Assembly: GCA_017615835.1 (NCBI GenBank) | Contig: JAFZZI010000017.1 | Span: 1 to 50,917, forward strand | DNA from: Bacteroidaceae bacterium | GTDB lineage: Bacteria > Bacteroidota > Bacteroidia > Bacteroidales > Bacteroidaceae | Length of the DNA: 50,917 nt | Direction: 5' to 3' | Part shown: positions 1,681 to 37,201 of the stretch, piece after piece | How positions within the stretch are numbered: position 1 is the first letter of the stretch | Layout of the letters: each line of letters opens with the position of its first letter | Program-made: the position numbers and the translations under genes | The notes under the pieces: model-generated | The model's database searches: none | What the model saw: only the letters and a program-made list of their open reading frames with translations | What the model was told of the DNA's origin: nothing

Positions 1681-1935
1681 TTAGCCTAATCGTTTAGAGG
1701 GTGATACCCTGATATCCTTATATATAAGGGATTCCAATAAGGGGCAGACATTTCCCCTTTTTATTCCCTAATAACTTATTTACCAATTCTTTTTTCAATT
1801 TGGGGTGCAAAATTACAAAAAAAGTCGCAAAAACATACCGACCAGTATCTAAATATTTAAAAATTAGCCCTATTTCCTCGTTATTTGAAGGTAATAGGGC
1901 TAAAATGGGGTATATTTACCTTTGAAATCACATAT
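1681..1935 (-). promoter_or_regulatory. rteA promoter and leader with hairpins
   Basis: This gap lies between the methylase-helicase stop and the rteA start, both on the minus strand. A Bacteroidetes-type -7 box (TAATTTTG, minus strand) is at 1808-1815, giving rteA a leader of roughly 120 nt. The leader holds a hairpin with 6-bp GC-rich arms (AAGGGG/CCCCTT, 1739-1759) and a 14-bp palindrome CCTTATATATAAGG (1716-1729). Whether these terminate readthrough or regulate rteA is not determinable from sequence. Confidence 0.55.
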
Positions 1936-10347: not shown

Positions 10348-11439
10348 TCAGAGCTTAGGGCCTCGCTTCTGTTTCTTCTCTTCCTTCTGCTCCTGCTTCT
10401 CACCCTCGGGCTTCTGTTCATTTTTCTGGTGTTCGTTCTTGGGTGCGACCTGTCCCTTCTGCAGTGGCTCGTCCACCTTCTTTGTGGCCTCGTTGGTCTT
10501 GCCCTGATGGTTCACGGCTACTTGTGTCTCGCTCTCATTGGCTGGGGCAACGACCTTGCCCTGCATCGGGTCGTTCTTCGAGGTGAACGGCTGGCCCTTG
10601 TCTGGATAGAACATCAGGTACATTGTGGCAGTCGTGCCGTCCTTCAGCGGATAGTTATCGAGTTTCACCGACTTGCCTTCACGATAGTCCTTCTGCTGCT
10701 CTTCGGTCAGCGGAATGCCCTTCCACTTGGTCAGGTTCTTGATGCTGCCGTCCTCGTTCGTCCAGTTCATCTTGGTTTTCTGGTTCTGTTCCTGCACCTC
10801 TTCCTCCTTGCGGCTACTGCCAGGGACGAAGGACACGTTCTTGCGGTCGGCATTCACTTGAAAGTCCACGGTGAACTTCTGTCCGTTCTCGCCCTCAAAG
10901 AGCTTGTCCTTCACGATGCCACCCTGCTTGAGAAGTTCCATCTCTTCGGGAGTAAACTTCACGTTACCCACACTCTCACGGAGATGCAGCTTGCTCACGG
11001 GATAGTGTACCAGTTCGTTGGTCTGCTTGTCGTAAGACACGAAGCAATTCTGCATGGTGTTGTCTTTCACGTTGAACAGCGGAACAACCTTGCCGAGGTT
11101 GCCAGTCTCTTTCAGTGCCTTTGCATCCTCCTTGGTGAAGGTGTAGCCCATGTACTCCGCATTCTCCAGCTTCTGCTCCTTGCGCACGAAGTGAGGCAGT
11201 ACACTATAAGTGCCATCCTGCAGACGTGTCAGTTGCAGGCGTGCAGCGGCCTTCACCTTCTGGTCGTAGATGAGCATTGTCACATCGAGAAGGCCGGACT
11301 TGCCAAAGTTCAGCATATTGTCTTTCGCCCCCGTTCGCTCCAGCACCTCTTTCGAGATACCAAACTTCTCTTCAATCTGGTCCCAGTTAACCTTGGACTC
11401 ATCGATGGGCTGATAGCCCTGATTCTGGTTTTGTGCCAT
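10348..11439 (-). CDS. DUF3945 family protein (orf3 position of excision operon)
   Basis: 363 aa, soluble. The N-terminal part (INWDQIEEKFGIS-type start, KSGLLDVTMLIYD) and a repeated module containing LTEEQQKDYREGKSV and FTPEEMELLKQGG match what is known of DUF3945 proteins of Bacteroidales ICEs. The C terminus is low complexity, rich in K, E and Q (about residues 310-363). In CTnDOT the gene at this place (orf3) sits between xis2d and exc and is not essential for excision. The 34-bp gap to the HTH gene upstream suggests co-transcription. Function is unknown. Confidence 0.8.
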   Translation of the reverse strand: MAQNQNQGYQPIDESKVNWDQIEEKFGISKEVLERTGAKDNMLNFGKSGLLDVTMLIYDQKVKAAARLQLTRLQDGTYSVLPHFVRKEQKLENAEYMGYTFTKEDAKALKETGNLGKVVPLFNVKDNTMQNCFVSYDKQTNELVHYPVSKLHLRESVGNVKFTPEEMELLKQGGIVKDKLFEGENGQKFTVDFQVNADRKNVSFVPGSSRKEEEVQEQNQKTKMNWTNEDGSIKNLTKWKGIPLTEEQQKDYREGKSVKLDNYPLKDGTTATMYLMFYPDKGQPFTSKNDPMQGKVVAPANESETQVAVNHQGKTNEATKKVDEPLQKGQVAPKNEHQKNEQKPEGEKQEQKEEKKQKRGPKL

Positions 11440-11473
11440 AATAGATAAAAATTTTAATTGTTAATAAATAATG

Positions 11474-11893
11474 TTATCTGTTGGCGAGAATATCGCCGTT
11501 CTTGTTTTTGTTCATATTGGCAAGGAACTCAGCAACTGCTTTCTTGTCGAGTCTGCTTCCGAATTGGGTGATTAGTTTCTCTACGTCAGACTCCTTATAG
11601 TAGGCACTGTTACGCAGGATGATATAAGGCAGATTCCCTGCATTTCGGTATCGCATGAGCGTCTTTCTGCTGATTCGCAAGCTGTTTGCCAGTTCCTGTG
11701 TGCTATACATTCTCTCGCCTCTTAGGTAAAGTACTCCTTCGTGGTTACGCATCCTCAGATCATCCACCAGTACCTGTATCATCTGTTCTTGTTTCTGCAT
11801 CCTTTTGACTACGCTACGCATACACTCAAGGAAAAAATCCTTATCCAACACTTCACTCTGCTGTTTATCTTCTGTTATGTCTGTTCCATTCAT
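11474..11893 (-). CDS. Small HTH DNA-binding protein, Xis2d-like position
   Basis: 139 aa. A MerR/excisionase-type winged helix is visible at about residues 60-115: YSTQELANSLRISRKTLMRYRNAG followed by LPYI and YYKESDVEKLI. It is separated by 2 bp from the previous HTH gene and followed by the DUF3945 gene and topB, the same order as xis2c-xis2d-orf3-exc in CTnDOT, where both small proteins are directionality factors for IntDOT. The name is by position and fold, so other DNA-binding roles are possible. It is a paralogue of the three other HTH genes nearby. Confidence 0.75.
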   Translation of the reverse strand: MNGTDITEDKQQSEVLDKDFFLECMRSVVKRMQKQEQMIQVLVDDLRMRNHEGVLYLRGERMYSTQELANSLRISRKTLMRYRNAGNLPYIILRNSAYYKESDVEKLITQFGSRLDKKAVAEFLANMNKNKNGDILANR

Positions 11894-11895
11894 AG

Positions 11896-12252
11896 TCAGT
11901 CCTCCATGTTTTCAAGGATTCTCTTTTTCTCTTCAATGCATTCCTGACGTATGGATGCAAGTAGTTTTTTGCTCAATGGGCGCATGGTGACATGTGCGAA
12001 CTCTTCAATGTCAGACAGACGGTAGCATAGTTGTTTCGCATAGCGGTGGTAGGCAATCTTTCCTTCTGATCGGTAATATTGCATTGTCCGCTTCTCCACA
12101 CAGAGCAATCGGCAAGCCTGATCATTGTTCAGGATAATGTCCTCGTCGCTGATGTTGACGGGAGCCGTAGCCTCCTTTACATATGTTTCTATTCTCTCTA
12201 TGCGGTTTAGCAATTGCTGCCAGAGACCGCTTTCAATGGTGATGACTTCCAT
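11896..12252 (-). CDS. Small HTH DNA-binding protein, Xis2c-like position
   Basis: 118 aa. HTH near residues 45-90 (DEDIILNNDQACRLLCVEKR, then YYRSEGKIAYHRY and YRLSDIEEF), the typical excisionase-like fold. It is the first gene of the minus-strand excision operon and has its own promoter 32 bp upstream. By analogy with CTnDOT it probably acts as an excision factor and may also influence transfer gene expression. The start ATG at 12252 gives MEVITIESGLWQQLLNRIER, which matches the opening of the plus-strand gene at 12468 (MDIVILEKSAFEQLLAEVRQ), supporting both starts. Confidence 0.75.
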   Translation of the reverse strand: MEVITIESGLWQQLLNRIERIETYVKEATAPVNISDEDIILNNDQACRLLCVEKRTMQYYRSEGKIAYHRYAKQLCYRLSDIEEFAHVTMRPLSKKLLASIRQECIEEKKRILENMED

Positions 12253-12283
12253 TCTTATTTCTTTTCTTGTTTGATTTCGGCAG

Positions 12284-12291
12284 CAAAATTA
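12284..12291 (-). promoter_or_regulatory. -7 box of the excision operon promoter
   Basis: TAATTTTG on the minus strand fits the Bacteroidetes TAnnTTTG element, 32 bp upstream of the first HTH gene. It lies in the 215-bp divergent gap, so the plus-strand HTH pair may share control from here. Confidence 0.55.
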
Positions 12292-12467
12292 CAGCAAGCC
12301 AGAGACAATGTTTCCCACCCTTTTAACACCTTGGAAGATAATATTTTTGAATGGCTCCAATGTCCCCGATTATTAGAGACTTTCTGGGACTTCTTCACTC
12401 TCGATGTGCTCGTTTTGATGCAATCCGACTACCTTTGCAGTTGTTTGAACCAAACCGATTTAAGAAC

Positions 12468-24109: not shown

Positions 24110-27109
24110 ATGGAAAAAATGAAACGAACATTCAATCTCATCCTCATCCTCGCCCTCTGGCTCACGATGGCGCAGACGGCGTGGGCCGATGACGTGACAT
24201 GGTACATGAACAGCGGACAAGGCACGACTTGCAACCAGTCTGACCACCAAGCAGAATTCAGCAGCAACGGCAAAACGATGCTTTACACATGGACAGGTAC
24301 CGACCAGTTTATTTATTTTGGTCAAGTTGGTGAACAGACCATGTTCATGGATGTCCTCAATAACCATCTTTCAGTGTCATTCCCATACCTCGAAGGCACT
24401 GTGACCAAAGTCGAACTGTACAAATTGGATTTCTGGGACGCTGGCATGAAGTTTTCCGTAGGCAACGGTTCGCAGAATCTGATGAACGGGAATAGCGAAT
24501 ACTGTACTTCTGTAGATGTTAGTGGAAATACTCAGGACGTTACCTTTACGGGCAGCGTCGATGTGGATGCGAACCATCCGTTACGATTCACATTCAGCGT
24601 TAACGGGAGTGCTCCATTATATAACAGATCTTTCAGCTTTTGGAGTGGTGGATATATCAAGGTGACCTACACGCCTGCAACGGTAACCGATGCGGGACAC
24701 GTGTTCACATCTGCGAACATCAGCGCCAGCGGCAATGTGCTCACCGCAACCTGCTCCAGCACCGATGTCGCCCACACCGCCTTGTACGGTGCCAACCATC
24801 AGTACACGCTGACGCTCGTCGCCAACGATGGTATGGCAGACCCTTTTGTCAAGGTCAGTGCAGCAATCGACCCCACGTTGGGAGAATTCAACAATACGAC
24901 GCAACTCGAAGCCACGTGTACCATCGAATATGCGCCACAGGGCTCCAGCAATTGGACTACTACCGCACCTAACACCGAGGGCAACTACACCGCCCGAGCC
25001 ACCGTTGCCATCGGCGGTACGAACTACGTGCTGACAAAGAACTTCAGCGTGATAGCCGGATATAACATCACCAACAACAACCCGCAGCAGTTAAGCATCA
25101 ACAAGACAGGAGCCATGGCGGGTGAAAACATCACCGTCACCTTCACGCCGAAGATGGGCGAGAGCGTAGAAGCGCTGACTGTAACGGGTGACAACACGAA
25201 CCTGAGTATCGACAATGGCATCACCGATAACCACGACAACACCTACACATTCGCCATGCCGAATGAGGACGTAACCCTCGGCGGCACGTTCACATTCCCG
25301 ATGAATGCCGACAACTTCGCGCAGGATGGCAACATCTACACCATCAAGAACGCCGACGGGTGGGACTACTTCTGCCAGCGCATACAGTATGATGCTAACA
25401 TCGACGGCTTCAGCGGCAAGACCATCGAACTCGCTGCCGACAACATCACCGTGACGACGATGGCGGGCATGATGCATCCGTTTAAGGGAACCTTCGACGG
25501 CAAGGGCAAGACGCTGACTTTCAACCCCACTGAGGTTGGAATGTACACCGCCCCCTTCCAGAACACCGACGGCGCCACCATCTGCAACCTACATGCAACG
25601 GGACAGATTGAGGGCGGCACCAATTCCTACATAGGCGGCCTAGTGGGCAGTGCTAACGGCAACCTCACCATCCGTGACTGCCGCGTGAGCACCCAAATCA
25701 GCAGCACCGTCAGCGGCATTGCCAACAACGGTGGCTTCGTGGGCCTCCTGAGTTCGCATTACGATCAATGCCACATCACGGGCTGTGTGTTCGACGGACT
25801 CATCTACAACCCCAACTATTCCGGCTCGACCTACGGCTGCGGCGGCTTCGTCGGCTGCTTTTCGCAGTACGGATATGCCATGCTGGAAGACTGCCTCTTC
25901 CTGCACGGCCAGTACGACAACAACGGCAACAAGTGCGAACTCGACTGGGGATATGACAACGACAGGAACAGCACCTTCTTCCACCGTAGCAACGGCTACG
26001 GCGGGGGCACGTTGACCAACTGCTTCTACGTCGGCACACGCGGCTTGAAGCAAGGCTCGCCCGCTGTGGAATCGGCCGACGCTCCCGACAACTTCGCCCA
26101 CTTCGGCGACCCGACCGACCACTGCTTCATGCAGACCTACGGCCACACCATGGTCTTCGACGGCAAGTACTATACGCCGACATACGGTGACCTGGTGGAG
26201 AAGTACGACTACAGCGGGGTGAAGAGTTACATCATAGAGTACGACGACGCGCCCCTCGGCATTCCCGACATCACGTCGCCACTGTGGACGGAGAGTCTGC
26301 GCTACAACCGCTCGTTCACCTCTGGAAAGCCCGTGACGGTGATGCTGCCGTTCAACTTCACGAGAGACCGCATCACGCTGGCTGGATCCAACGCAAACCC
26401 GTCGGGAAAGTTCTACGAGTTCAAGGGCATCGAGGAGAATCTGGATCACAAGTGGGTGGCCGTGATGATAGAAGCAGGCGAGACATTATCGAACGAGGTG
26501 GGTGAGAACACGCTGCAGGCCAACCATCCGTACCTCTACGTGCCCAACGAGAGCACGAAGCATTGGGCCATGTATGTTAGCGGCGGCATCAACATCTTCA
26601 CCGAGGGCAACGAGGGCGGCACGAAGGAGACGGAGTATTACTATGGTGACGGCATGCCTTGGAACCACTGGAAGTTCAAAGGCACCTACCAGCCGCGCTA
26701 CTGGAGCGACAGCGAGAACCCTGAGGAAATTGGAAAGGTGTATGGCTTCGCAGGGAATACCAAGGTGGTGGACGGACAAACTGTCGTGGCCGGCGACTTC
26801 GTGAGGGCGAAGAGCGGCGCAAAGATTCGCCCGACGTCGTGCTACCTGGAGTGGGTAGAGCCACAGACCAACACCGCCCGCGCCCTGACCCGTGGCGCAG
26901 CGGCTGACGAGGAACTGCCACAAAGCATCACCGTCAAACTCATTTCGGCCAACGGCGAGACTACCGCCATCGGCACGCTCGACACCAAGACGGGCGAAGT
27001 GACCTTCGACAGCGAAGCCTGGTACACGCTGGACGGTGTTCGCCTGAGCGGCAAGCCCAGCAGCAAGGGTATCTATATCAATAATGGTAAAAAGGTTGTA
27101 ATCAAATAA
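24110..27109 (+). CDS. Large secreted repeat protein with Prevotella-type C-terminal tail
   Basis: 999 aa (996 from the second ATG, 24119). Signal peptide MKRTFNLILILALWLTMAQT, cleaved near AWA. The middle has beta-sandwich/Ig-like stretches (about 180-400) and a GLUG-like repeat region about 440-680 (YIGGLVGSANGNLTIRDCRV, GGFVGLLSSHYDQCHITGCV, CGGFVGCFS...LEDCLF). The end reads EAWYTLDGVRLSGKPSSKGI then YINNGKKVVIK, a tail seen on many Prevotella exported proteins and probably an export or attachment signal. It is an extracellular adhesin-like or glycan-binding protein; the target is unknown. GC content is clearly higher than in the gene before it, suggesting separate ancestry. Confidence 0.75.
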   Translation: MEKMKRTFNLILILALWLTMAQTAWADDVTWYMNSGQGTTCNQSDHQAEFSSNGKTMLYTWTGTDQFIYFGQVGEQTMFMDVLNNHLSVSFPYLEGTVTKVELYKLDFWDAGMKFSVGNGSQNLMNGNSEYCTSVDVSGNTQDVTFTGSVDVDANHPLRFTFSVNGSAPLYNRSFSFWSGGYIKVTYTPATVTDAGHVFTSANISASGNVLTATCSSTDVAHTALYGANHQYTLTLVANDGMADPFVKVSAAIDPTLGEFNNTTQLEATCTIEYAPQGSSNWTTTAPNTEGNYTARATVAIGGTNYVLTKNFSVIAGYNITNNNPQQLSINKTGAMAGENITVTFTPKMGESVEALTVTGDNTNLSIDNGITDNHDNTYTFAMPNEDVTLGGTFTFPMNADNFAQDGNIYTIKNADGWDYFCQRIQYDANIDGFSGKTIELAADNITVTTMAGMMHPFKGTFDGKGKTLTFNPTEVGMYTAPFQNTDGATICNLHATGQIEGGTNSYIGGLVGSANGNLTIRDCRVSTQISSTVSGIANNGGFVGLLSSHYDQCHITGCVFDGLIYNPNYSGSTYGCGGFVGCFSQYGYAMLEDCLFLHGQYDNNGNKCELDWGYDNDRNSTFFHRSNGYGGGTLTNCFYVGTRGLKQGSPAVESADAPDNFAHFGDPTDHCFMQTYGHTMVFDGKYYTPTYGDLVEKYDYSGVKSYIIEYDDAPLGIPDITSPLWTESLRYNRSFTSGKPVTVMLPFNFTRDRITLAGSNANPSGKFYEFKGIEENLDHKWVAVMIEAGETLSNEVGENTLQANHPYLYVPNESTKHWAMYVSGGINIFTEGNEGGTKETEYYYGDGMPWNHWKFKGTYQPRYWSDSENPEEIGKVYGFAGNTKVVDGQTVVAGDFVRAKSGAKIRPTSCYLEWVEPQTNTARALTRGAAADEELPQSITVKLISANGETTAIGTLDTKTGEVTFDSEAWYTLDGVRLSGKPSSKGIYINNGKKVVIK

Positions 27110-27112
27110 CGA

Positions 27113-27262
27113 ATGGAGGACACAGCAATGAAAAAGAGAGCATACGAGAAACCAACCTGCAGGGTCGTAGTGTTGCGACATAAGACAAATCTATTGATAA
27201 GCAGTCCCTACGACGCCACCCCGCCCAACGAAATCCCCGACTACGACGACTGGTTTGCTTGA
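27113..27262 (+). CDS. Small protein following surface-protein gene
   Basis: 49 aa (or 44 from the inner ATG at 27128): KKRAYEKPTCRVVVLRHKTN then LLISSPYDA and an acidic end DYDDWFA. Short proteins starting MKK(x)YxKPxxxVVxLxHxxxLL(I/V)xS occur commonly in Prevotella next to secreted-protein genes; a family-like pattern is recalled but no function is known. It lies 3 bp after the 999-aa gene and before a strong terminator, so it is part of that operon. Confidence 0.65.
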   Translation: MEDTAMKKRAYEKPTCRVVVLRHKTNLLISSPYDATPPNEIPDYDDWFA

Positions 27263-27327
27263 TTAAATGCTAATATGGTGAAATGACAACAATGCCCAAA
27301 GGCATCAATTGGAATGAACAATTCTAC

Positions 27328-27366
27328 AAACTCCTGCGCCTGTCACTTTGACTGGCGCAGGAGTTT
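27328..27366 (+). terminator. Rho-independent terminator
   Basis: Perfect 13-bp arms AAACTCCTGCGCC (27328-27340) and GGCGCAGGAGTTT (27354-27366) around a 13-nt loop, ending in TTTAT. It closes the secreted-protein operon. Confidence 0.85.
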
Positions 27367-27483: not shown

Positions 27484-28413
27484 TCATATCAGCCTCCTCG
27501 GATGTTTCTTGCTTAATATTTCATGCTGCTTTTGAAGATTCACATGAGTGTATATTTGTGTTGTTACAACAGAACTATGACCAAGTAGATGTTGAATATA
27601 AGTAATGTCAACACCTTCTTCCAATAAAAGAGTTGCGTATGTATGACGAAAAGTGTGCGGGGTTATTTTCTTTTTAATTTGAGAAGATGCAACAAGATTC
27701 TTTATGAGTAGTCTCACGGATTGAGTAGAGAGTGTATTATGCAAACGGCTAACGAATAATGGAGATTGTGAGTCACAAGGACCTCGTTCGTTTAGCCAAT
27801 CTTTTATTGCTGCTAATGTGGCTTTCTGGCTGATATCTATTATTCGTTCTTTATTCCCTTTCCCAATGATTCTAACACACCCTTGCTTCATGTCAATATC
27901 GCATACACGCAGATCACACAGTTCACTGACACGCATACCAGAAGCGAACAGCAACTCGATAATAGCAATATTACGTGTTGCCATTTGATGGGAAAAAGTA
28001 TCTGAATTACAATCCATTCGTTGTTTATAAACAATGCCAAGCAATAACTTTACTTCTTTTATATTCATCACTGTGGGTAAGCGGATTGGCTCACGCATCC
28101 TGATTTTCATCTTCCGCATGGGACTGTTATACCATTCATTTTCATATTCGTAATAATTCAGCATGGCTTTAATTGTCGCAATCTTCCTTTTTATCGTTTT
28201 ATGCCGAAAGTGTGAAATGGCTTGAAGATATTTTCTTAATACATCTTTTGTCACTTCTGAAATATCAAGATCACCTATGCTACTAACGAATTGTAATAGA
28301 TCTGCTTTATAAGCATTCAATGTCTTCTCGCTTAATTTCTTCTCAAATTCGCAATGCCATAAGAATTCTTCTATGACAACGCTTACTTTTTGGTTGTTTT
28401 CATTTGCGTTCAT
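27484..28413 (-). CDS. Tyrosine recombinase (XerC/D or invertase type)
   Basis: 309 aa. The N-terminal SAM-like core-binding domain (FLWHCEFEKKLSEKTLNAYK) precedes the catalytic domain, with a full set of active-site residues: Arg in SGMRVSELCDLR (about residue 160), Lys in IGKGNKERII, His-x-x-Arg in TPHTFRHTYATLL, His in LLGHSSVVTT and the Tyr nucleophile in TQIYTHVNL (about residue 291). It is much shorter than IntDOT-type ICE integrases (about 410 aa) and resembles Xer or DNA invertases. Its start is about 62 bp from a 19-bp repeat whose inverted partner lies 3.4 kb away, so DNA inversion of the neighbouring gene pair is its most likely job here. Alternatives are integrase of a small island or a Xer paralogue. 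Confidence 0.88.
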   Translation of the reverse strand: MNANENNQKVSVVIEEFLWHCEFEKKLSEKTLNAYKADLLQFVSSIGDLDISEVTKDVLRKYLQAISHFRHKTIKRKIATIKAMLNYYEYENEWYNSPMRKMKIRMREPIRLPTVMNIKEVKLLLGIVYKQRMDCNSDTFSHQMATRNIAIIELLFASGMRVSELCDLRVCDIDMKQGCVRIIGKGNKERIIDISQKATLAAIKDWLNERGPCDSQSPLFVSRLHNTLSTQSVRLLIKNLVASSQIKKKITPHTFRHTYATLLLEEGVDITYIQHLLGHSSVVTTQIYTHVNLQKQHEILSKKHPRRLI

Positions 28414-28474: not shown

Positions 28475-28493
28475 GATAATAACAAATTATGGA
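28475..28493 (+). repeat. 19-bp inverted repeat, left copy, across ATP-grasp start codon
   Basis: GATAATAACAAATTATGGA; contains the ATG (28489-28491). Identical to the minus strand of 31878-31896. Similarity extends to about 25 of 28 positions outward (AACGAAT versus AACTAAC). Confidence 0.9.
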
Positions 28494-29499
28494 AACTAAA
28501 TTTAATGTTGTTTTAGTAGCAGACAGGTTATATACTGATGATATCAACACCGAATTTGATGCGTCAGATTTGGAGAAGATATCAGATGAATACTATTACG
28601 GATTGTACGAAGAACTGAAAAAGGTGTGTGGAGGAACGGTATTCCATTATCAATCGCCCAAGGATTTGGCCGACAATGCTTATAAGCATAAGGACGATAT
28701 TGTATTTACCATTTATGGAGGGGAGAAATCAAGAAACAGAATGGCCCTTGTGCCTGCTGTCTGCGAGAGTTACGGTTTGAAGTATGTCGGTGCTGACGCA
28801 TATGCGAGAATTATATGCCAAGACAAGTACTTGTCGAAGATATACTGTGAGCGATTTGGACTACGCACGGCACCGTCCTTCTTGCTTGAAGACGAGCAGG
28901 ACATCCAATTGATGAAGGACCTGACTTTTCCTTTGGTGTTGAAGCCGAACATGGAAGGCAGTTCTATTGGCATCACGGACGACTCTATTGTTTACAACAT
29001 GGAGCAAGCAAGCTCACTTGCTCGTCGTCTTTTCAAGGTTCATAACCAACCTGTACTGGCAGAAGAATTCATAGAGGGGAAAGAGGTCTCTTTCTACATT
29101 ATTGGACAAGGCGGTCATTTCTCCCTGCTGTCTGCCCTTGAAATATATATGGAGGGGGATGAAGATTTTCTGTGCAAGCACCTGTACTCGGCAGAGGTAA
29201 AGCATCATTCTGACGATATTGTGCATAGGGATATTACATATATGATTAGCCCTGAGGATATTGAAATAGTCAAGCAGATATTCATATCGCTTGGAAAAAT
29301 GGACTTTATGCGGGTTGATTGTAGACTAAGGGATAATGTCTTGTATCTGATAGAGTTGACGCCAGACGCATATATAGGCCCTTATTCTGGTTTTATTGAT
29401 GCAGCTCGCACCATTGGGAAGGACTATACAGAGGTGATAGACATGATTATTCATACTGCATATTCTTCAAATCAAAGTCAATATGCCAGTTTGAAATAA
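28489..29499 (+). CDS. ATP-grasp ligase, D-Ala-D-Ala ligase-like
   Basis: 336 aa, cytosolic. The N-terminal part has a Ddl-like Rossmann portion (NVVLVADRLYTDDINTEFDA; IVFTIYGGEKSRNRMALVPA). The ATP-grasp fold follows: CQDKYLSKIYCERFGLRTAP, then FPLVLKPNMEGSSIGIT (nucleotide-binding Lys and glycine loop), VLAEEFIEGKEVSFYIIG, and a metal region MRVDCRLRDNVLYLIELTPD. In authentic Ddl enzymes the last motif is ExNxxPG; here the Asn is Thr (ELTPDAYIGPYSGF), so metal binding or substrate may differ. It probably ligates an amino acid or peptide to a carboxyl substrate. It converges with and overlaps the STAND gene by 53 bp, and its start codon is inside the left inverted repeat. Its substrate cannot be read from sequence. 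Confidence 0.82.
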   Translation: METKFNVVLVADRLYTDDINTEFDASDLEKISDEYYYGLYEELKKVCGGTVFHYQSPKDLADNAYKHKDDIVFTIYGGEKSRNRMALVPAVCESYGLKYVGADAYARIICQDKYLSKIYCERFGLRTAPSFLLEDEQDIQLMKDLTFPLVLKPNMEGSSIGITDDSIVYNMEQASSLARRLFKVHNQPVLAEEFIEGKEVSFYIIGQGGHFSLLSALEIYMEGDEDFLCKHLYSAEVKHHSDDIVHRDITYMISPEDIEIVKQIFISLGKMDFMRVDCRLRDNVLYLIELTPDAYIGPYSGFIDAARTIGKDYTEVIDMIIHTAYSSNQSQYASLK

Positions 29500-31882
29500 A
29501 CGACAAAGCACGATTTACCGATGCATCTACCCTATTGTTGTGATTGCGGGGCAGAGGAATACCATGTAGTCGGTAATTCCAAAGCGGATCCTCGCTGGTG
29601 ACATACTTCATGGTCTCGCCGATATACTCGGCGTAGAGTTCGTCGTTTCCTGTCTTTTTGTAGAAATGGGCAATATTGAAGTATGCACATGCAACTATTT
29701 CCGTATTGTAATAGGTTCTTGTCTCCACCGCCTTGATTAAGTGTGGGATAATCTTACGTGCGGCATCATCCTCATTCCTCCAGTCTAATAGCGCTAATTG
29801 GTTCACGTGGATGGCTGTATAATCGAAACCCTCCTTGACAGTCAGGAGCGCCTGCTGCAATGCCCACTTCGTTTCGTCATCGTACAACGATTGAAACATT
29901 CTGACCACAGCAATATTATTGAATATCGAGTGTCTTTCTGTTACATCGTCATTCAACAGCTTTTTGGCAATTTCAAACTGCTTCTCTGCCTTTTTAAACC
30001 TGGCTGCAAGCGCCGATTGAACACCATAGGTCATTCTGGAATAAGCTTCCATTTTTGTGGCCCCCCTATCCCTGAAGTGTGTCACGCTCTCCCAAATTGG
30101 CGGAAGACTTTGTTCATAACGAATGTCCGAATATATTAACTCCGCATTACGAAGAATATAGCCATACTCAAACAGGTCTTTGTAGCTATCATTGCTGATA
30201 CATTCATGATACTCTGCGGCAGCCTCATTATATTTACCAACAACATAATTTAGCATTATTCTTGTGGAACGAAGTGCTATGAGATAGCCACTGGTCTTAT
30301 TGTGCGCATTATTTATTTCCTCTGTGCATATATCAAGAGCCTCTTCTTTATTACCGATTTCATCTAATACGATAATTTTCATTAATGTAAACCTCGACCC
30401 ACTACAGGTTGAGGTGCGCATAATATCATAAGCCCTATTGTAATGACCCAAGCTACAATGTAATGTAATCAGCCACAGGTCTATCCTCTCCAGTACGCTG
30501 CCATTCTTTGGCAGTGTGTCTTTTAGGCGCATGATGTTTTCAAGCAAACTGTTTGGGGAAATCATCTTAGTGGCTTCGTAGTACAGGTCATCAAGCAAAC
30601 GGAGCACCTTGCCATACTGCTTCAAACAAGCAGCATAAAATAGTTGCTTGCATAAAGCCGTAGAATTTGATACAGAAAACGTCTGACTTGGATTTGAGTA
30701 ATAATCATACCAGAACTGTTGGGCGAGTATGTTCAGGCTGTTCCATGCGTTACTGCTTCTGATGGAGGTGGAAACATAGTCATGGGTTACCAAGAAACCA
30801 CGCTGTGGGTCTTCAGTGACAAACCCCTTATCTATCAGGGACTGTAGCAATGGCTTGGTCAAGTCCCCGCCATACTTGATGTTATGAAGTAGCACAGCTT
30901 CGTCAAACACGGAATCTGGGACGGGCTCCACATGGTTCAGTATCGCCGATAGTACAAAGCGTTCATCAGAACTGAGCAGTCCTAATGCTTCTTTTGTAAA
31001 ATCATGATGTCGCACTCCTTCAACATTATACGGGCTATATTTGACCATGCACAGATAATCAATGATCGTGCGTAAGTTCTCTGGGTCAATCATCATGTCC
31101 CCCGTAATGATAGACTTTTGCGCATTGGGAATCTGTTCGATGATTTTTATAATGTCATCTTTAGACAATGCGCCGATTCTCATTGTCGTTACTGTTGCAC
31201 CATAGACTTTAAAGTTGTCAACCAGTTCTGAAAGCGGATAGTGCCCAGTCAAGTTTGTGGTATATTCAAGAATAAGCGTCGTGTCGTGTTGTTGTTTTAG
31301 TAACTCTGTGAGTGTCATCAATGAAACACTGTCTATATCCTGGATATTCTCAAAATGTAGAACTATGTTGGTTTCATGATTAAATATATACCGTACATAT
31401 TCATTAATAAGGGCAAAGGACTCCACGTCGTAAGCACTTAACACCTTTTCTTCTTTGAACGTAGCAACCTCTATTGCGCTGTCAAACAAAGCATTGACAA
31501 ACTTGATTACCCCATTGGGGATCATATCCACGATAGAAGCCCTTAAAGAATTAACCCCATTAATGGCAGCATTCTTATTCGCAACCCTTGACCTTAGATC
31601 CTGCACGAACAAAGTCAGGCTCATATCATTTGCCTTTGCGATACTTATGCTTTTAGCCAACTCACGATAAAAATAACCGTCTGCATAATCCGAAGAATGT
31701 TTTGTTTTAACATGATAAATATGTTTGTTATTTATCTTCTCCAATACGTTGTCGACTAAGGCTGTTTTTCCAATACCCGATTTCCCACATACAAAAATAG
31801 CCCTGTTGGCAGAAACATTTGTTTGGAGTAAGTTACCAAGTTGCCCTCTTTCTTTTACCCTATTTACAAATGATATATCCAT
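29447..31882 (-). CDS. STAND-like AAA+ ATPase with TPR-type C-terminal half
   Basis: 811 aa. N-terminal P-loop GKSGIGKTALVDN (about residues 33-45) with FVNRVKERGQLGNLLQ just before it, typical of Orc1/AAA_16 and STAND ATPases. IVLHFENIQDID may be the Walker B region (about 178-190). A winged-helix-like portion spans about 300-360, then helical repeats from about 390 to 790 (for example HYNRAYDIMRTSTCSG, TEINNAHNKTSGYLIALRST, ARFKKAEKQFEIAKKLLNDD) read as TPR-like. Such proteins sense a signal through the repeats and oligomerise; many are defence or transcription switches. No obvious N-terminal effector domain is present, so a partner protein may be the effector. Its start codon lies within the right inverted repeat, 39 bp after the membrane-protein gene, so it is presently the last gene of that operon. 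Confidence 0.8.
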   Translation of the reverse strand: MDISFVNRVKERGQLGNLLQTNVSANRAIFVCGKSGIGKTALVDNVLEKINNKHIYHVKTKHSSDYADGYFYRELAKSISIAKANDMSLTLFVQDLRSRVANKNAAINGVNSLRASIVDMIPNGVIKFVNALFDSAIEVATFKEEKVLSAYDVESFALINEYVRYIFNHETNIVLHFENIQDIDSVSLMTLTELLKQQHDTTLILEYTTNLTGHYPLSELVDNFKVYGATVTTMRIGALSKDDIIKIIEQIPNAQKSIITGDMMIDPENLRTIIDYLCMVKYSPYNVEGVRHHDFTKEALGLLSSDERFVLSAILNHVEPVPDSVFDEAVLLHNIKYGGDLTKPLLQSLIDKGFVTEDPQRGFLVTHDYVSTSIRSSNAWNSLNILAQQFWYDYYSNPSQTFSVSNSTALCKQLFYAACLKQYGKVLRLLDDLYYEATKMISPNSLLENIMRLKDTLPKNGSVLERIDLWLITLHCSLGHYNRAYDIMRTSTCSGSRFTLMKIIVLDEIGNKEEALDICTEEINNAHNKTSGYLIALRSTRIMLNYVVGKYNEAAAEYHECISNDSYKDLFEYGYILRNAELIYSDIRYEQSLPPIWESVTHFRDRGATKMEAYSRMTYGVQSALAARFKKAEKQFEIAKKLLNDDVTERHSIFNNIAVVRMFQSLYDDETKWALQQALLTVKEGFDYTAIHVNQLALLDWRNEDDAARKIIPHLIKAVETRTYYNTEIVACAYFNIAHFYKKTGNDELYAEYIGETMKYVTSEDPLWNYRLHGIPLPRNHNNRVDASVNRALSFISNWHIDFDLKNMQYE

Positions 31883-31896
31883 AATTTGTTATTATC
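31878..31896 (-). repeat. 19-bp inverted repeat, right copy, across STAND start codon
   Basis: Minus strand reads GATAATAACAAATTATGGA and includes the ATG at 31882-31880; exact inverted partner of 28475-28493. Confidence 0.9.
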
Positions 31897-31921: not shown

Positions 31922-32932
31922 TTAAAAGCTTACCTTTTCTTTGTTTAGTTCACTAAGAAGTTCCTCAGCTCTATCAATAGTTGTACTCCTATGTATTACG
32001 TAAAATATAAAACGTCTTTGAACAGATATCCAACATATAGTAAGCATAAGAACGATTTTCCCTAATAATGTTATATATGGAATGGAATACTTTAGGAATA
32101 TGCCAATCCAATCATTATCTTCAATAGCGGGCTTCTTAAAAGGAATATATGCTTGTATAATGGCGTAAATATACAAAACAAATATAAAAAAAGAAGGTAT
32201 TTTCAGATAAGAACTATTTAGTTTCCCTAAAACTAAAATAAAAGTGATAGTAGATACAGCACTAATATAGAAAGGCATCACATGAGCCATGGTAGAATTC
32301 GGATTACAACTCTCAACGATAACACCAGAAATACATATAATTAACAAGAGAGTCCATATAAAAATAGATTCCATATATGTATAATCATTTTTTACTCTTT
32401 TTTTATAATTTACAGTTACACTTGTTAATATTATATATATAGCAAACATTGCAGAGGAATTTAAGAAATCGAAGATTTGCTCGTAAATCGTAATGGTAAA
32501 AAAACAATCCATATTATATGACATAATTAATTCCCCTACGTAGCAGATTAACCAGACTATCCATACAATTAACCAGGCATAAAAGAATTGAGAAGCAGTA
32601 CCACGAACGGTTTTATATGCAGATTCAACGGTGTCATTATCATATATTTTAAGACCACAGTTTTTTTTCATATATTGTTTTATCTGTTCCTTAGAATCTA
32701 CAATATCAAACATTGTCCTTTTTCTTATTTTAATCAGAACATAAACTGTGATAATAATAAAGATACTCTGAAACAAATAATTTTCCCTGTTGTCTAAATA
32801 AAAATCTATAGTTCTATTATTTGCCCATACTGCCCATATCCCACTAATAAATACTGGAACAAGTCCTCCAATTACCGTAACCAAAATATTTGAAGTCTGG
32901 GCTTTGAAAAAAAACTTAATATTGTCGAACAT
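31922..32932 (-). CDS. Polytopic membrane protein, about eight transmembrane segments
   Basis: 336 aa. Hydrophobic segments are visible near residues 15-36 (NILVTVIGGLVPVFISGIWA), 50-66 (FQSIFIIITVYVLI), 113-135 (FFYAWLIVWIVWLICYVGEL), 150-172, 188-206 (IWTLLLIICISGVIV), 216-236, 240-262 (FFIFVLYIYAIIQAYI) and 285-306. Loops are short, and a cytosolic-looking stretch (MFDIVDSKEQIKQYMKKNCG) lies at about 72-92. No family recognised. It is 10 bp after the KaiC-like gene and before the STAND gene. A membrane effector or signal receptor for the module is plausible. Confidence 0.7.
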   Translation of the reverse strand: MFDNIKFFFKAQTSNILVTVIGGLVPVFISGIWAVWANNRTIDFYLDNRENYLFQSIFIIITVYVLIKIRKRTMFDIVDSKEQIKQYMKKNCGLKIYDNDTVESAYKTVRGTASQFFYAWLIVWIVWLICYVGELIMSYNMDCFFTITIYEQIFDFLNSSAMFAIYIILTSVTVNYKKRVKNDYTYMESIFIWTLLLIICISGVIVESCNPNSTMAHVMPFYISAVSTITFILVLGKLNSSYLKIPSFFIFVLYIYAIIQAYIPFKKPAIEDNDWIGIFLKYSIPYITLLGKIVLMLTICWISVQRRFIFYVIHRSTTIDRAEELLSELNKEKVSF

Positions 32933-32942
32933 AGTTTACTTG

Positions 32943-35078
32943 TTATTTTTTTGAATTATTATTCCAGAAATCATCCATACTGTTCACCATATGATCATCA
33001 ATCTCTTTAGAATTGAAAGAATAATATGAGTCAGTATGCTCTTTACTATCCATCATGTCATAACAAAGAAAGAGGTCTTTTACCGAAGAGACTTTCCCGC
33101 AATAGATTTTACTCGGTGTATTATTATAACCTGCAAATTTTTCAATATACATTAATAATTTTCCTTTTTCATCTCTTCCCATACATATTGTGTTGTCTGC
33201 AACTGCTCTTAATTCTTTTACCAGTAAACTTTGTTTATCACAAAGAATATAAAGAGAGATGTTCTTTTCGCGACAAACAGCAGCTAATGCCGACAAAAAT
33301 AGTTGGCTCTTTTTCAAAAAAGGGAAACAGTAATCAATAATTTCCAAATCATCCATTATAACACGTTTGACTTTTTTATCATCACGGAAACATATCTCTA
33401 ATTGACTTTGCAAGAAAAATATTAACTCGTCAGGAGTTATATTACCCATTGAAATATTCATAAAATGCATATATGAGTAACATTTTTTACATTTCTCACA
33501 AGTATTGCCCTTTCTTACACGAGCGGGACATGCCAACCGACGCCTTATCATATTGTCTTCTTTGTTTAAAAGCAAAAACAAAGTATGCTCTTGACTCACT
33601 GAAGAACTGAATGCGCTTCCAAATGATACAAAACGCTTATATGTATTGGATTCTCCAATGATTGCAGTTACACCGCCTCGAAATCCATAAATAAGATTAT
33701 TTACATCATTAGGGTTAGCTCCTAATGTGTTATATTCTTTATTACAATTCTTATCTGACAAGAAAATACGTTCAAGAATATCTATACAGTCAATGCTTAT
33801 ATCATATTGAGGGTATAATGCTCTAAAGTAGTCATCTTTCATTTGTTCTTTATCATTTTCAAATTTTTCAAAAATGATATTTTTTTCTCCGTAATAACGA
33901 TTTCTGTCTAGATATTGTTGATATGTGTCAGTAATTACATCAGAATGAGTATATACCATAGCTCTCTGAAGATATCTTCTTTGCGAGAAGTAATTATGAA
34001 TGCTTGGATATACTTCAATTCCATAATCACGTCGTTTGTATTGATGCCACCCAATAGCGCATGTTTGGGTACGTGATTTCCTAATTGAAAGGTAATTAAT
34101 CTGATAATCATTAATCAAACGGTTTTTCATTTTGATATGAATATCGACTAAATGGTCTGGTATGTCTATCGTTTCTGGAACTATTAATATCAATACCTTA
34201 TGTTTATCAGCAAATGAAGAGTTCCTATATGTATCAATATAAGAGAAAAGATCTTCGAATTCATGGCAAGATGTGTTCTGGCCATTTACCTTTAACGGAA
34301 CCATATCAATGGCCGTAACATCGTATTCATCAAGCTTTAAATTTTGCGAAGAAAAGTCTTTTTTTTGCTGTATGTCTACACCTACGAATGGGAATGAAAG
34401 GGATTTACCTAATTGACGGACTTTGTTACTTATTCTTTTGTTTTCTTGATCAGTATATACATATTGTGATATTCTATCATACTTCCTTGCAAAAAGGATA
34501 TTGTCTTCATCCGTTTTCACGTACCCTTCTAGAGGTTTTGTAATATCATCATTTTTTTGTGAGAAATATGATCTGAAATGAAGAGAGTTTGTTCTGTTAC
34601 TATAATAAATAGCTTCTTTACAAATCAATTCGTCTGTTTTATGCAAAATCTCCGAAAGAGGCAATCTTTCATAAAAATCATGTGACGTCTTTTTGCAAAG
34701 AATTTCACTCTTATCAAAAAATTCAGATGAAAAACCATTTGATAGTTGAGCCCAGTTGTTATTACTAACATACATTTCTGTCATTATCCTAATACAAGAG
34801 GAGATAATATTATCTAATAAAATGTCTTCAACAAAACTTTCTGAAAGATAATTTGATATATAGTGCAAGAACACTTTGTTTTCTGAACAATGTTCATATG
34901 CCTTGTCTTTAGAAAGAGTTTGACCTATACCATATAGTAACTGTAGGCCAAATAGTGTGCGATCAGTTGTTTTATCACCTTGGACTACAATAACAGTAGT
35001 GTTATTTGTTAAATCAACACCATCATATAACAAATAATCAAAACCAATAATATTGGTCTTTATCTTTCTGAGATACAA
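32943..35078 (-). CDS. Tandem KaiC/RecA-like domain protein with degenerate P-loops
   Basis: 711 aa from a TTG at 35078; the frame continues five further codons upstream into the IS end. The first lobe starts KTNIIGFDYLLYDGVDLTNN then VIVVQGDKTTDRTLFGLQLL, the KaiC pattern 'GFDxLLxGG...GxxGxGKT' with the P-loop lysine replaced (DRT). A second lobe at about residues 480-690 reads NLIYGFRGGVTAIIGESNTY then KRFVSFGSAFS (degenerate P-loop), a zinc-like cluster CPARVRKGNTCEKCKKC, and Walker B VKRVIMDDLEIIDYC. Together these resemble a double KaiC-like pseudo-ATPase, likely a sensor or scaffold. It is the first gene of an operon with the membrane protein and the STAND ATPase. An IS1634-type element separates it from its probable promoter, so the true N terminus is uncertain. 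Confidence 0.65.
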   Translation of the reverse strand: MYLRKIKTNIIGFDYLLYDGVDLTNNTTVIVVQGDKTTDRTLFGLQLLYGIGQTLSKDKAYEHCSENKVFLHYISNYLSESFVEDILLDNIISSCIRIMTEMYVSNNNWAQLSNGFSSEFFDKSEILCKKTSHDFYERLPLSEILHKTDELICKEAIYYSNRTNSLHFRSYFSQKNDDITKPLEGYVKTDEDNILFARKYDRISQYVYTDQENKRISNKVRQLGKSLSFPFVGVDIQQKKDFSSQNLKLDEYDVTAIDMVPLKVNGQNTSCHEFEDLFSYIDTYRNSSFADKHKVLILIVPETIDIPDHLVDIHIKMKNRLINDYQINYLSIRKSRTQTCAIGWHQYKRRDYGIEVYPSIHNYFSQRRYLQRAMVYTHSDVITDTYQQYLDRNRYYGEKNIIFEKFENDKEQMKDDYFRALYPQYDISIDCIDILERIFLSDKNCNKEYNTLGANPNDVNNLIYGFRGGVTAIIGESNTYKRFVSFGSAFSSSVSQEHTLFLLLNKEDNMIRRRLACPARVRKGNTCEKCKKCYSYMHFMNISMGNITPDELIFFLQSQLEICFRDDKKVKRVIMDDLEIIDYCFPFLKKSQLFLSALAAVCREKNISLYILCDKQSLLVKELRAVADNTICMGRDEKGKLLMYIEKFAGYNNTPSKIYCGKVSSVKDLFLCYDMMDSKEHTDSYYSFNSKEIDDHMVNSMDDFWNNNSKK

Positions 35079-35092
35079 AGAAGCCTTGTCAA

Positions 35093-37201
35093 TTAACCCA
35101 ACTTTGACACATTAGCATCGCTTTTTCTTGCTAATCAGCGATTTGCATGTTCTCGCTATGGTGACTGTGTTCTACAAACTTTGATTTTCCGGAACGGCAT
35201 TTTCTTGTAGTTCAACATGGAGTAGATATCTGCTGCCTGTTCCGTTGGCGTGCTGCATATTCTCATCTCCACCTTCTCTCCCATGGCGTTGACGGCTTCG
35301 CTTGTCACAGCCTTCTGCGTGCTCATGATGCGTACTATCTCCGTCCAGTACGGTGTCGGGTATTCCGCCTTGGGGTTGGGATCGGCCTTCTTCCGCCTCT
35401 CGTTCTCCTTCTTCATCTGGTGGCGTATGACGTTCACTATCCAGTATGATAGCAGTCCGAGGAAAAGATGAGCATCCGAGCGGTCGTCCTTCTGGTGGTA
35501 TATCGGACGTAGGCTGAGGTCGGTCTTCAACTGGCGGTTCGAGCACTCTATCTCGCGTATCAGGTTATAGTAATCCCAGGTGGTCTTCTCGTCGAGTGTC
35601 TTGACGTTGGTGCGCAGGAAATAGGTTCCGTGTACCTGCTTTTCGGGCACTTCAAGCGTCCATGTGACAGAGGTCACCGTATCGTTCTTGTCCTTCTCGA
35701 TGTCTATATTGTAGTAGCGTGCGATGGAAGGGAAATGCCCCTCAAGCTTTCCGATACGTCTGAGCACGGCCTCGTACTTCTTCGTGCCGTTCTTCTTCGC
35801 GAGCGATGCGGCTATGGCATCCAGCCCTTCTTCGAAGCGTTTTCGGAAGCTGCGGTTCATCGACTCCTCCTTCAGGGCCTTGGCCGGTGAGTCTATCTTC
35901 AGGTAGTAGTCCTCGCCCTCGGTGTGTACCTCCTGCAGTTTGATGGGCTGCTGCTTATTGTCATGTACGATGACCGTCCTGGCATCGGCATCGACCGTGT
36001 AGTCGGTCAGTACCTTGCGCGACACGCATAGATAGTTGTAGCCTTTGGCCTTTATCAGGTCGAGGTTGTCCTGCGAGGCGATGCCGGCGTCTATCACCAC
36101 GAGCACCTTCTGGTCGTCTCCGGTTCCAGTGGGATTGGTGGCTATGAGCTTGTCCACCATGTCGGGCAGCGACTTCGGGTCGGCGGTATTCCCCTCTAAT
36201 ATGGAGCTGTAGCGGATGAAACCGTCGGTGTTGATGCAGAGAGCCAGCACCAGCAGCTTGCAGTCTGAGCGCTTCTCCTTTGAGCGACCGAACTTCGCCT
36301 TCCCGCTTCCGTCCTTGCGGCCCTCGAAGTAGAAGTTGGTCAGGTCGAAGAGCATGATGCGGTTCGTGGGCTTGAACAGGTCGTCGGTCGTCCGGCAGAG
36401 GTACTCCTCTATCTTCGCCTTCTCCTTCAGGAACCAGTCGGCCACGCTGTACACCTTGCGCTGAGTGACGGCTTCTATGGCCAGGTCGATGAGCTCGCAG
36501 ACTCCCGAGTTGTCGCGCATGATGCGCATCGACTTCAGTTCCGAAGGAGTATATATGGTACGCACGATGAGATGCCCTATGGCCAGCTTCACCTGCTCCT
36601 CACTCCAGCCCAGCGAGCGGAGGAAACGGTCGAAGCCTATCTGGCGGATGGCCTGCAGGCAGAGCCACTCGGCACCGATGTCACGTGCATCCGTGTGCTT
36701 CAGCGTGTCCACGTCGATCCGGCGTTCGGCCTTTGCCTTGCTTGCCTCGAAAGCCTGATGGATGATGTCGAGCTTCTTCTCCTCGACAAGACGCTGCCAG
36801 TATTCGTCTATCTTCTGGCGTACTATATCACTATACACGGCCATCTGGTCTTCCCACAGCTCGTGCTCACCCTGATGCTCATACTTGTAGGTCAGCCCGC
36901 AGGAGATGTCGCGGATCTCCTCAGGCTTCAGCCCGTGGATGAACCCCACGTTAAGCAGAATGCGCGTACAGGCACGCCCGCTGGCATTGCGGTAGGACTC
37001 CTTCAGGCGGTAGTACTTCTCATACTCGCCAGTCTCTGGGTTGTATCTCGTCTGCGACGTGAAATTCATGACGCAAAGGTAAGCATTATTTTTCAAACCG
37101 CTGTGTTCTACAACGCGGTTTTGACCACTCCTGAGAGCTAAATGCCTGAAAATCAAATGCAACTTTTTTCAAAAAAGTTCAAAGTGTCAAAGTTGGGTTA
37201 A
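35093..37201 (-). mobile_element. IS1634-family-like insertion sequence, complete
   Basis: About 2.1 kb bounded by perfect 18-bp terminal inverted repeats TTAACCCAACTTTGACAC (35093-35110) and its complement (37184-37201), enclosing one transposase gene. The flanks share only AAT, so a clear target duplication is not visible. It lies between a -7 box at 37277-37284 and the KaiC-like gene, which begins 14 bp from its left end. Confidence 0.88.
35156..37069 (-). CDS. IS1634/IS4-type DDE transposase
   Basis: 637 aa from the ATG at 37069 (MNFTSQTRYNPETGEYEKYY). DDE elements seen: MLFDLTNFYFEGRKDG (first Asp), VVIDAGIASQDNLDLIKAKG (second Asp) and the Y-x2-R-x3-E block YYNLIREIECSNRQLKTDLS followed by RPIYHQKDDRSDAHLFLGLL. 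These match the IS1634 group of the IS4 superfamily. The frame is intact and the ends are perfect, so the element is probably still active or recently inserted. Its GC content is above that of the AT-rich module it interrupts, consistent with separate origin. Confidence 0.9.
   Translation of the reverse strand: MNFTSQTRYNPETGEYEKYYRLKESYRNASGRACTRILLNVGFIHGLKPEEIRDISCGLTYKYEHQGEHELWEDQMAVYSDIVRQKIDEYWQRLVEEKKLDIIHQAFEASKAKAERRIDVDTLKHTDARDIGAEWLCLQAIRQIGFDRFLRSLGWSEEQVKLAIGHLIVRTIYTPSELKSMRIMRDNSGVCELIDLAIEAVTQRKVYSVADWFLKEKAKIEEYLCRTTDDLFKPTNRIMLFDLTNFYFEGRKDGSGKAKFGRSKEKRSDCKLLVLALCINTDGFIRYSSILEGNTADPKSLPDMVDKLIATNPTGTGDDQKVLVVIDAGIASQDNLDLIKAKGYNYLCVSRKVLTDYTVDADARTVIVHDNKQQPIKLQEVHTEGEDYYLKIDSPAKALKEESMNRSFRKRFEEGLDAIAASLAKKNGTKKYEAVLRRIGKLEGHFPSIARYYNIDIEKDKNDTVTSVTWTLEVPEKQVHGTYFLRTNVKTLDEKTTWDYYNLIREIECSNRQLKTDLSLRPIYHQKDDRSDAHLFLGLLSYWIVNVIRHQMKKENERRKKADPNPKAEYPTPYWTEIVRIMSTQKAVTSEAVNAMGEKVEMRICSTPTEQAADIYSMLNYKKMPFRKIKVCRTQSP

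Follow-up and report, generated by a model that had tools for sequence, protein, structure and literature searches.

To our knowledge, the known inversion switches flip promoters or exchange related versions of a gene. In the 50,917-nucleotide stretch analyzed here (hereafter the window; contig JAFZZI010000017.1 of the Bacteroidaceae assembly GCA_017615835.1), a 3.4-kb segment carrying an ATP-grasp gene and a STAND ATPase gene most probably represents a two-gene inversion cassette with start-codon exchange by the adjacent recombinase; entire unrelated genes appear to trade places at the start codon, with their pairing retained across phyla. The G segment of phage Mu and the C segment of phage P1 (Gin/Cin), together with the P segment of E. 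coli e14, resemble the proposed cassette in that the choice of expressed coding sequences depends on an inversion. Those switches use serine recombinases and act on tail-fibre genes (in P1 'two related sets', in the accessible text of PMC12529663), whereas here a XerD-like tyrosine recombinase stands beside unrelated whole genes with their start codons at the site. The invertible promoters of gut Bacteroidales share with it the bacterial order, a recombinase near inverted repeats and an expected population heterogeneity, but their segment is a promoter region of ~180-345 bp, according to the accessible part of PMC12118408, and not two complete genes. The hsdS inversion systems and shufflons likewise alter the expressed coding sequence by inversion; as far as the accessible portions of PMC4948785 and PMC11868660 describe them, they swap variants of one gene, whereas the partners here are dissimilar. 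In its accessible text, PMC11892184 places Bacteroidota invertons primarily between genes, yet 952 of the 1837 invertons in its community touch coding sequence, so that two-gene cases could be among them. In the accessible parts of the open-licence PMC literature (PMC5903667, PMC11868660, PMC11892184, PMC7272460, PMC12529663, PMC12118408, and PMC7159879), we found no description of an inversion that swaps unrelated whole genes.

The segment is bounded by a perfect 19-bp inverted repeat, GATAATAACAAATTATGGA, at 28475-28493 (+) and 31878-31896 (-). The features are as follows (aa, amino acids):

27484..28413, - strand: XerD/XerC-like tyrosine recombinase, 309 aa, complete, putative invertase (Pfam Phage_integrase, 8.5e-44), pointing away from the segment
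28414..28474, unstranded: outer flank on the recombinase side, without a segment-facing copy of the Bacteroidota promoter motif TAnnTTTG
28475..28493, + strand: putative left recombination site, core GATAAT-AACAA-ATTAT, holding the ATP-grasp start codon
28489..29499, + strand: ATP-grasp ligase, D-Ala-D-Ala ligase-like, 336 aa (Pfam Dala_Dala_lig_C, 5.6e-18), recombinase-proximal, predicted OFF
29447..31882, - strand: STAND-type ATPase, 811 aa (Pfam AAA_16, 3.2e-10), distal, predicted ON after the gene at 31922-32932
31878..31896, - strand: putative right recombination site, the inverted copy, holding the STAND start codon

With up to three mismatches allowed, the 19-bp repeat has only these two matches in the window, where shuffled sequences predict 0.02, and only two in the source genome (2.34 Mb in 32 contigs, 82% complete). 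A longer repeat of 26 nt (28468-28493/31878-31903) is 92% complementary. The two open reading frames (ORFs) converge with a 53-bp overlap, each start codon lies inside a 19-bp arm, and the segment is coding right up to the repeats at either end, so it is not a promoter region. These coordinates confirmed the first-pass annotation of this DNA, which had described a perfect inverted repeat over both start codons of convergent, 3'-overlapping genes, and Pfam agreed with it on both products (a D-Ala-D-Ala-ligase-type ATP-grasp protein and an AAA_16 ATPase). It had also placed a complete recombinase gene about 60 bp from the left repeat; the gene is intact and starts 61 bp from it. The encoded protein contains the tyrosine-recombinase motifs HTFRH and TTQIYTH and was aligned to XerD (1a0p). 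A housekeeping XerC/XerD was rejected, as the NCBIfam XerD and XerC models gave 237 and 235 bits, below their cut-offs of 330 and 335, and so was an integron, whose integrase model scored 127 bits against a cut-off of 265. The two genes had been called unrelated. No blastp match at 1e-3 was found between the two partners of the window or of the related loci L061, L062, L063, and L064, so this description holds for their sequences; yet the pair turned out to be co-inherited across phyla.

Seven relatives of the recombinase, with 86-96% identity, were found in GTDB genomes titled Prevotella, Prevotellaceae, Bacteroidaceae or Bacteroidales, and in one case Lachnospiraceae; two more were found in IMG/VR. 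The 86-96% relatives adjoin the same site wherever the contig extends that far, and in L061-L064 the site before the recombinase is followed by a pair of converging ORFs and then by a second, inverted site, the genes differing from those of the window. We then assembled 38 loci carrying related recombinases and looked in each for exact inverted repeats with one arm next to the recombinase. A repeat of at least 16 bp was present at 27 of the 38 loci and at none of 17 controls (longest, 13 bp), the controls being all 17 non-own XerC/D-like matches at 32-36% identity, a few with a short flank on one side. The 27 site-bearing loci are not all independent, since L074/L076, L099/L100, L093/L102, and L061/L062 each represent one locus or a pair of sister loci; L094, identical to L098 across the stretch, was omitted from the 38, and L068, a recombinase match of 30% identity, was excluded from the counts. 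Eight of the 11 misses have contigs ending within 128 bp on the segment side (L053, L054, L065, L067, L077, L090, L118, and L123, with the segment side inferred for L118 and L123); among these, L053 extends a few bases into the segment, and L054, L065, and L067 stop short of it. As for the others, L066 has a single site, the contig of L097 ends at the 3' side, and no repeat was found in L095, where only 758 bp lie upstream, too short for testing that side. Among the three phage-collection records examined out of 14 (H6-H8), sites were present in H7 (L096) only and not in L095 or L097.

The core RATAAY-N5-RTTAT was present at both ends of all 27 segments. ORFs converge from both arms in 24 of the 27 by the ORF rule, or 25 when the annotated L098 gene is counted, with the first start codons -2 to +16 nt from the core. 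The exceptions are -18 for the L061 TIR gene and L091, where the ORF finder chose an upstream start, and +73 in L120; no ORF in the L075 or L122 segment reaches 100 aa. In L122, the segment ends share further inverted blocks of 40, 26, 21, and 19 bp (10584-12375, recombinase-oriented), pointing to a different or decayed cassette. In whole-genome searches, the 16-mer core of the window was found once forward and once reverse in four of 11 genomes and once in another, that of L066. It is absent from the remaining six, of which four belong to the Bacteroides-type lineage, whose core differs, and two have contigs ending inside the recombinase gene; the reversed-pattern control gave no match in any of the 11. 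An 18-mer site search of viral contigs yielded five stretches, L053 and L057-L060, of which the latter four were set aside because of unrelated flanks; a second search pattern added L069, whose ORFs are unlike the locus. The junction of L053 (ATGGATA) agrees with the window in its flipped state, but with only a few bases to go on it was left out of the evidence.

Coincidence, or a general signal for translation placed before start codons, would agree with the overlap of the repeat and the start codons. However, the repeat occurs only twice genome-wide, accompanies the recombinase in relatives, and is absent from all 17 controls, so we give this explanation a negligible probability. The first-pass annotation had named repeats of this kind before unrelated start codons elsewhere as something that would refute its reading; this refutation fails, as the search of the source genome returned only the same two matches.

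Two pairs of loci display opposite orientations. In L061 and L062, from Prevotella-type genomes, the flanks are collinear (55 bp at 100% and 75 bp at 98.7% identity), while the SIR2-STALD/TIR segment between them is inverted, with 2219 bp aligned at 84% and breakpoints at the repeats; between these two loci, SIR2 has a dN of 0.14 and a dS of 1.69, indicating purifying selection. The Aliarcobacter cryaerophilus plasmids of L102 and L093 have a recombinase accession in common; their flanks are 99.9% (988 bp) and 99.8% (1441 bp) identical, and the 3458 bp in between, whose breakpoints fall at a 17-bp repeat, are inverted with 99.91% identity. This stretch encodes AAA/STAND-type and ATP-grasp proteins 25% and 41% identical to the pair of the window, the STAND frame of L093 being split in two. 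The opposite orientation in related genomes, which had been proposed as a check, was thus found twice, in L102/L093 with a window-type pair, and the earlier proposal of a site-specific inversion of a two-gene segment is supported by these relatives, where the site goes with the recombinase. These alignments show that both orientations exist in relatives and establish, at the level of sequence comparison, that such segments have inverted at such sites there; the segment of the window itself very likely inverts. In both L102 and L093, part of the site is present once more, inverted, in the interval from the recombinase stop to the site, where it could give rise to a hairpin in the transcript.

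In the mechanism that we propose, the adjacent XerD-like recombinase would act on the two inverted sites with their RATAAY-N5-RTTAT core, and inversion would determine which of the two complete genes is connected, through its start codon, with the leader and the transcription arriving from upstream on the expression side. The purpose may be population heterogeneity in defence-type or surface/metabolic functions.

The partner genes recur as pairs. The ATP-grasp protein of the window is 40-41% identical to those of L091, L093/L102, and L116, and its STAND protein is 23-25% identical to the partners in L091, L102, and L116; L074/L076 hold a damaged STAND/ATP-grasp pair. ATP-grasp is proximal to the recombinase in the window, L093, and L116, and STAND in L091, L102, and L074/L076. 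In the SIR2-STALD and TIR cassettes, TIR is proximal in L061 and L096 and SIR2 in L062; where a FAD enzyme is paired with a membrane protein, the membrane protein is proximal in L125 and the FAD enzyme in L127. These three pairs recur in both orders, and they do so across phyla. Methyltransferase and GNAT probably form another recurring pair: the L063 cassette combines a methyltransferase with a 333-aa protein 30% identical to the annotated GNAT protein of L092, the GNAT-type gene is proximal in L063 and L092, and the methyltransferase is proximal in L098, whose 327-aa partner, without a Pfam match, was assigned by position only. Further cassettes hold a glycosyltransferase and a 1017-aa AAA protein (L064), a Mrr_cat-AAA protein with glycosyltransferases, both sides having homologues in L120 (L124), a spermine-synthase-like protein with an unknown one (L126), and a methyltransferase with an EamA-domain protein (L121).

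Whole cassettes also differ between otherwise matching loci. At one site of Streptococcus plasmids, where the recombinase sides are 95% identical and the distal flanks (208-210 bp) 97-98% identical, three unrelated cassettes were found: methyltransferase/327-aa protein, polyprenyl synthetase/330-aa protein, and SHMT-type enzyme/AAA-TPR protein. The distal flanks of L063 and L064 are identical at 82 of 83 positions, and no similarity was found between the sequences inside. The sites could serve mainly for cassette capture and exchange, with inversion as a by-product of their inverted orientation. Besides the Streptococcus cassettes, this explanation can draw on L053 and L063, which, counted from the recombinase start, agree at 99.4% over 1771 bp although the few in-site bases of L053 fit neither L063 junction, and on L066, whose single site without a segment (~9923-9941) consists of two halves, each matching the outer half of one of the usual sites, and looks like an empty site. 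However, capture alone would not need start codons just inside the sites and converging genes, both seen in nearly all loci; identical pairs recur in both orders, and homologous recombination in the flanks could exchange cassettes too. We consider capture as the main function quite unlikely. Early in the recombinase frame of L066 there is a stop, and late in it a change of frame.

Whether these loci, found in Bacteroidota, Campylobacterota, and Bacillota, are two-gene toggles of one mobile family seems to us evenly balanced. One XerD-like recombinase subfamily with one site type would then keep unrelated but co-inherited genes mutually exclusive in expression, and cassettes would be traded between loci. 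If so, the switch would be a reusable module and its partner genes two alternative states of one, often defence-type, system, and the puzzle would be why a cell has one or the other, and not both, of ATP-grasp/STAND or SIR2/TIR. The recombinase clade combined with inverted RATAAY-N5-RTTAT sites could be used as a rule to search for further modules of this kind and for defence-type genes subject to phase variation.

One recurring pair, SIR2-STALD (ThsA-like) with TIR, resembles Thoeris. PADLOC matched the SIR2 proteins of L061 and L062 to ThsA, a SIR2-SLOG protein (2.8e-94 and 6.9e-93), those of L061 and L096 matched ThsA structures, and the L061 TIR protein matched ThsB (3.9e-10) more weakly than PDC-S66 (7.9e-16). 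The flip cassettes differ from Thoeris in being convergent and invertible, in a TIR protein that, in L061, appears only weakly ThsB-like, and in a SIR2 protein with Asn in place of His. In one alignment each, Asn replaces the His of the ThsA NAD site in L061 (against 7uxt) and L096 (against 8wc0), and the VYKINGD motif is likewise present in L062, giving three flip-module SIR2 proteins with Asn. Given the role of His152 in ThsA described in the accessible text of PMC7272460, these proteins may not act as in Thoeris, and their classical cooperation appears doubtful from sequence. The pair of the window itself is not Thoeris. A role in phage defence or in surface/metabolic bet-hedging is a tentative guess, drawn from the STAND, SIR2, TIR, and Mrr-type proteins and from Septu-like genes next to L063. 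There, PtuA/PtuB-like (Septu) genes and a PDC-M49A candidate defence gene lie upstream of the distal site (1500-6297). The L063 record is titled Lachnospiraceae, yet its recombinase clusters with those of Prevotella, which may reflect misbinning of the contig.

At 13 of the 27 loci, as in the window, the recombinase gene is directed away from the segment; at the other 14 it is directed towards it. In all 14 of the latter, the repeat starts within ~30 bp of the recombinase stop, which lies in or overlaps the repeat in L116, L117, and L119; recombinase and proximal gene can thus share a transcript. When the recombinase faces the segment, its side is thus the flank that naturally reads in; in the other layout, we infer that the distal side does. 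In the window, the expression side would then be the right, downstream of the 711-aa and 336-aa genes, with STAND predicted ON and ATP-grasp OFF:

31922..32932, - strand: 336-aa protein, membrane-type as judged from sequence, ORF directly upstream of the right site on the STAND strand
32943..35078, - strand: 711-aa protein, ORF, first gene of the putative operon into the right site
35093..37201, - strand: IS1634-family insertion sequence (NCBIfam IS1634, 8.1e-74, ORF 35156-37162), with 21-nt terminal inverted repeats, 95% complementary

The 711-aa protein had been annotated as KaiC-like, for which we found no basis, since neither it nor the 336-aa protein has a family match in Pfam, PADLOC, NCBIfam or PHROGs. 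The repeat had been placed 39 bp after the membrane-protein gene; this is the distance from its stop to the STAND start, and the repeat lies 25 bp from the stop. The claim that no promoter lies outside the left repeat holds for TAnnTTTG, the sole motif examined. Among seven Bacteroidota loci whose recombinase faces away, segment-facing TAnnTTTG was found in the distal flank of four and on the recombinase side of none, where the stretches scanned were shorter (22-61 bp against 39-100 bp); two of the four, L061 and L062, have nearly identical distal flanks. In the Streptococcus loci, a Shine-Dalgarno-like AGGAG lies inside the repeat, so either gene would get the same ribosome-binding site.

From this anatomy, we consider exclusive expression of one or the other gene rather likely. 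Several observations weigh against this. In the window, L063, and L064, the distal flank lacks a segment-facing TAnnTTTG, so in the window the expression side is read from gene order, and there the IS1634 element directly upstream of the 711-aa gene may have removed or altered the promoter of the operon. For the Streptococcus locus, scanning for a sigma-70 consensus performed no better than on shuffled sequences. The inheritance of pairs together across phyla suggests joint function, and the Thoeris system of B. cereus, which requires both ThsA and ThsB according to the accessible part of PMC7272460, is awkward for a strict either/or. Both genes might instead always be expressed from promoters on their own sides, with inversion trading these promoters and shifting the ratio of cooperating proteins; co-inheritance and the joint requirement for ThsA and ThsB would suit this. 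However, convergent overlapping genes are expected to interfere, the Asn for His in three flip-module SIR2 proteins makes classical Thoeris cooperation doubtful, and the distribution of segment-facing TAnnTTTG, although weak evidence given the shorter recombinase-side stretches, runs against it. Constant expression of both genes is in our view unlikely.

Damaged copies likewise count against the proposed switch. The ATP-grasp gene is broken by inserted elements in L074/L076, the STAND frame is split in L076 as well as in L093, an ORF of L099 falls short of the length of its counterpart in L100, and the segments without a 100-aa ORF (L075 and L122) or lacking altogether (L066) have been described above; the module also gets lost. 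The copy in the window could be a locked relic, its inversion having happened in relatives and no longer occurring here. The IS1634 element just upstream of the putative operon and the decay of some related copies (L074/L076 and L075) would fit, but the recombinase, both genes, and both sites of the window are intact, which makes a relic very unlikely. The IS element adjoins the upstream side of the apparent start of the 711-aa gene, and no target duplication of 3-10 bp was found around it.

In a phylogenetic tree, the family recombinases (n=31) and the controls (n=17) fall on opposite sides of one 99/99 branch, a split that is itself unsurprising because the family rows were mostly chosen by similarity; three Streptococcus recombinases at only ~36% identity nevertheless group on the family side. 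Own genome included, the recombinase was detected in five of 399 family genomes (E 1e-60) and in six of 393 order and eight of 395 phylum genomes (E 1e-55). It was also detected in three of 398 genomes from the genus of the L061 genome, whereas the other 36 genomes of the source genus gave no match at E 1e-50. This low, patchy occurrence is as expected for a mobile module. The STAND gene was found in its own genome and one other (G217) in a family sample of 151 genomes, and an ATP-grasp search of 101 relatives returned mainly distant ligases, with 29% identity for the best non-own match. Searches of viral contigs yielded no STAND relative and only ATP-grasp relatives of 24-28% identity.

Beyond the 3' end of the recombinase, ~26000-27365 of the window is 82% identical over 1365 bp to 5109-6444 of L062 (recombinase-start coordinates), and the similarity suggests that the adjacent surface-protein-like gene may move together with the module in some genomes. 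In L053, L054, and L064, the recombinase is followed downstream by two tandem ORFs (448 and 409 aa), tyrosine-integrase-like by eye, which suggest a mobile element; L067 has matching DNA. A radical SAM/SPASM protein with a PqqD-like domain adjoins the flip module in L053 (1306-2754), possibly as part of a peptide-modifying cluster.

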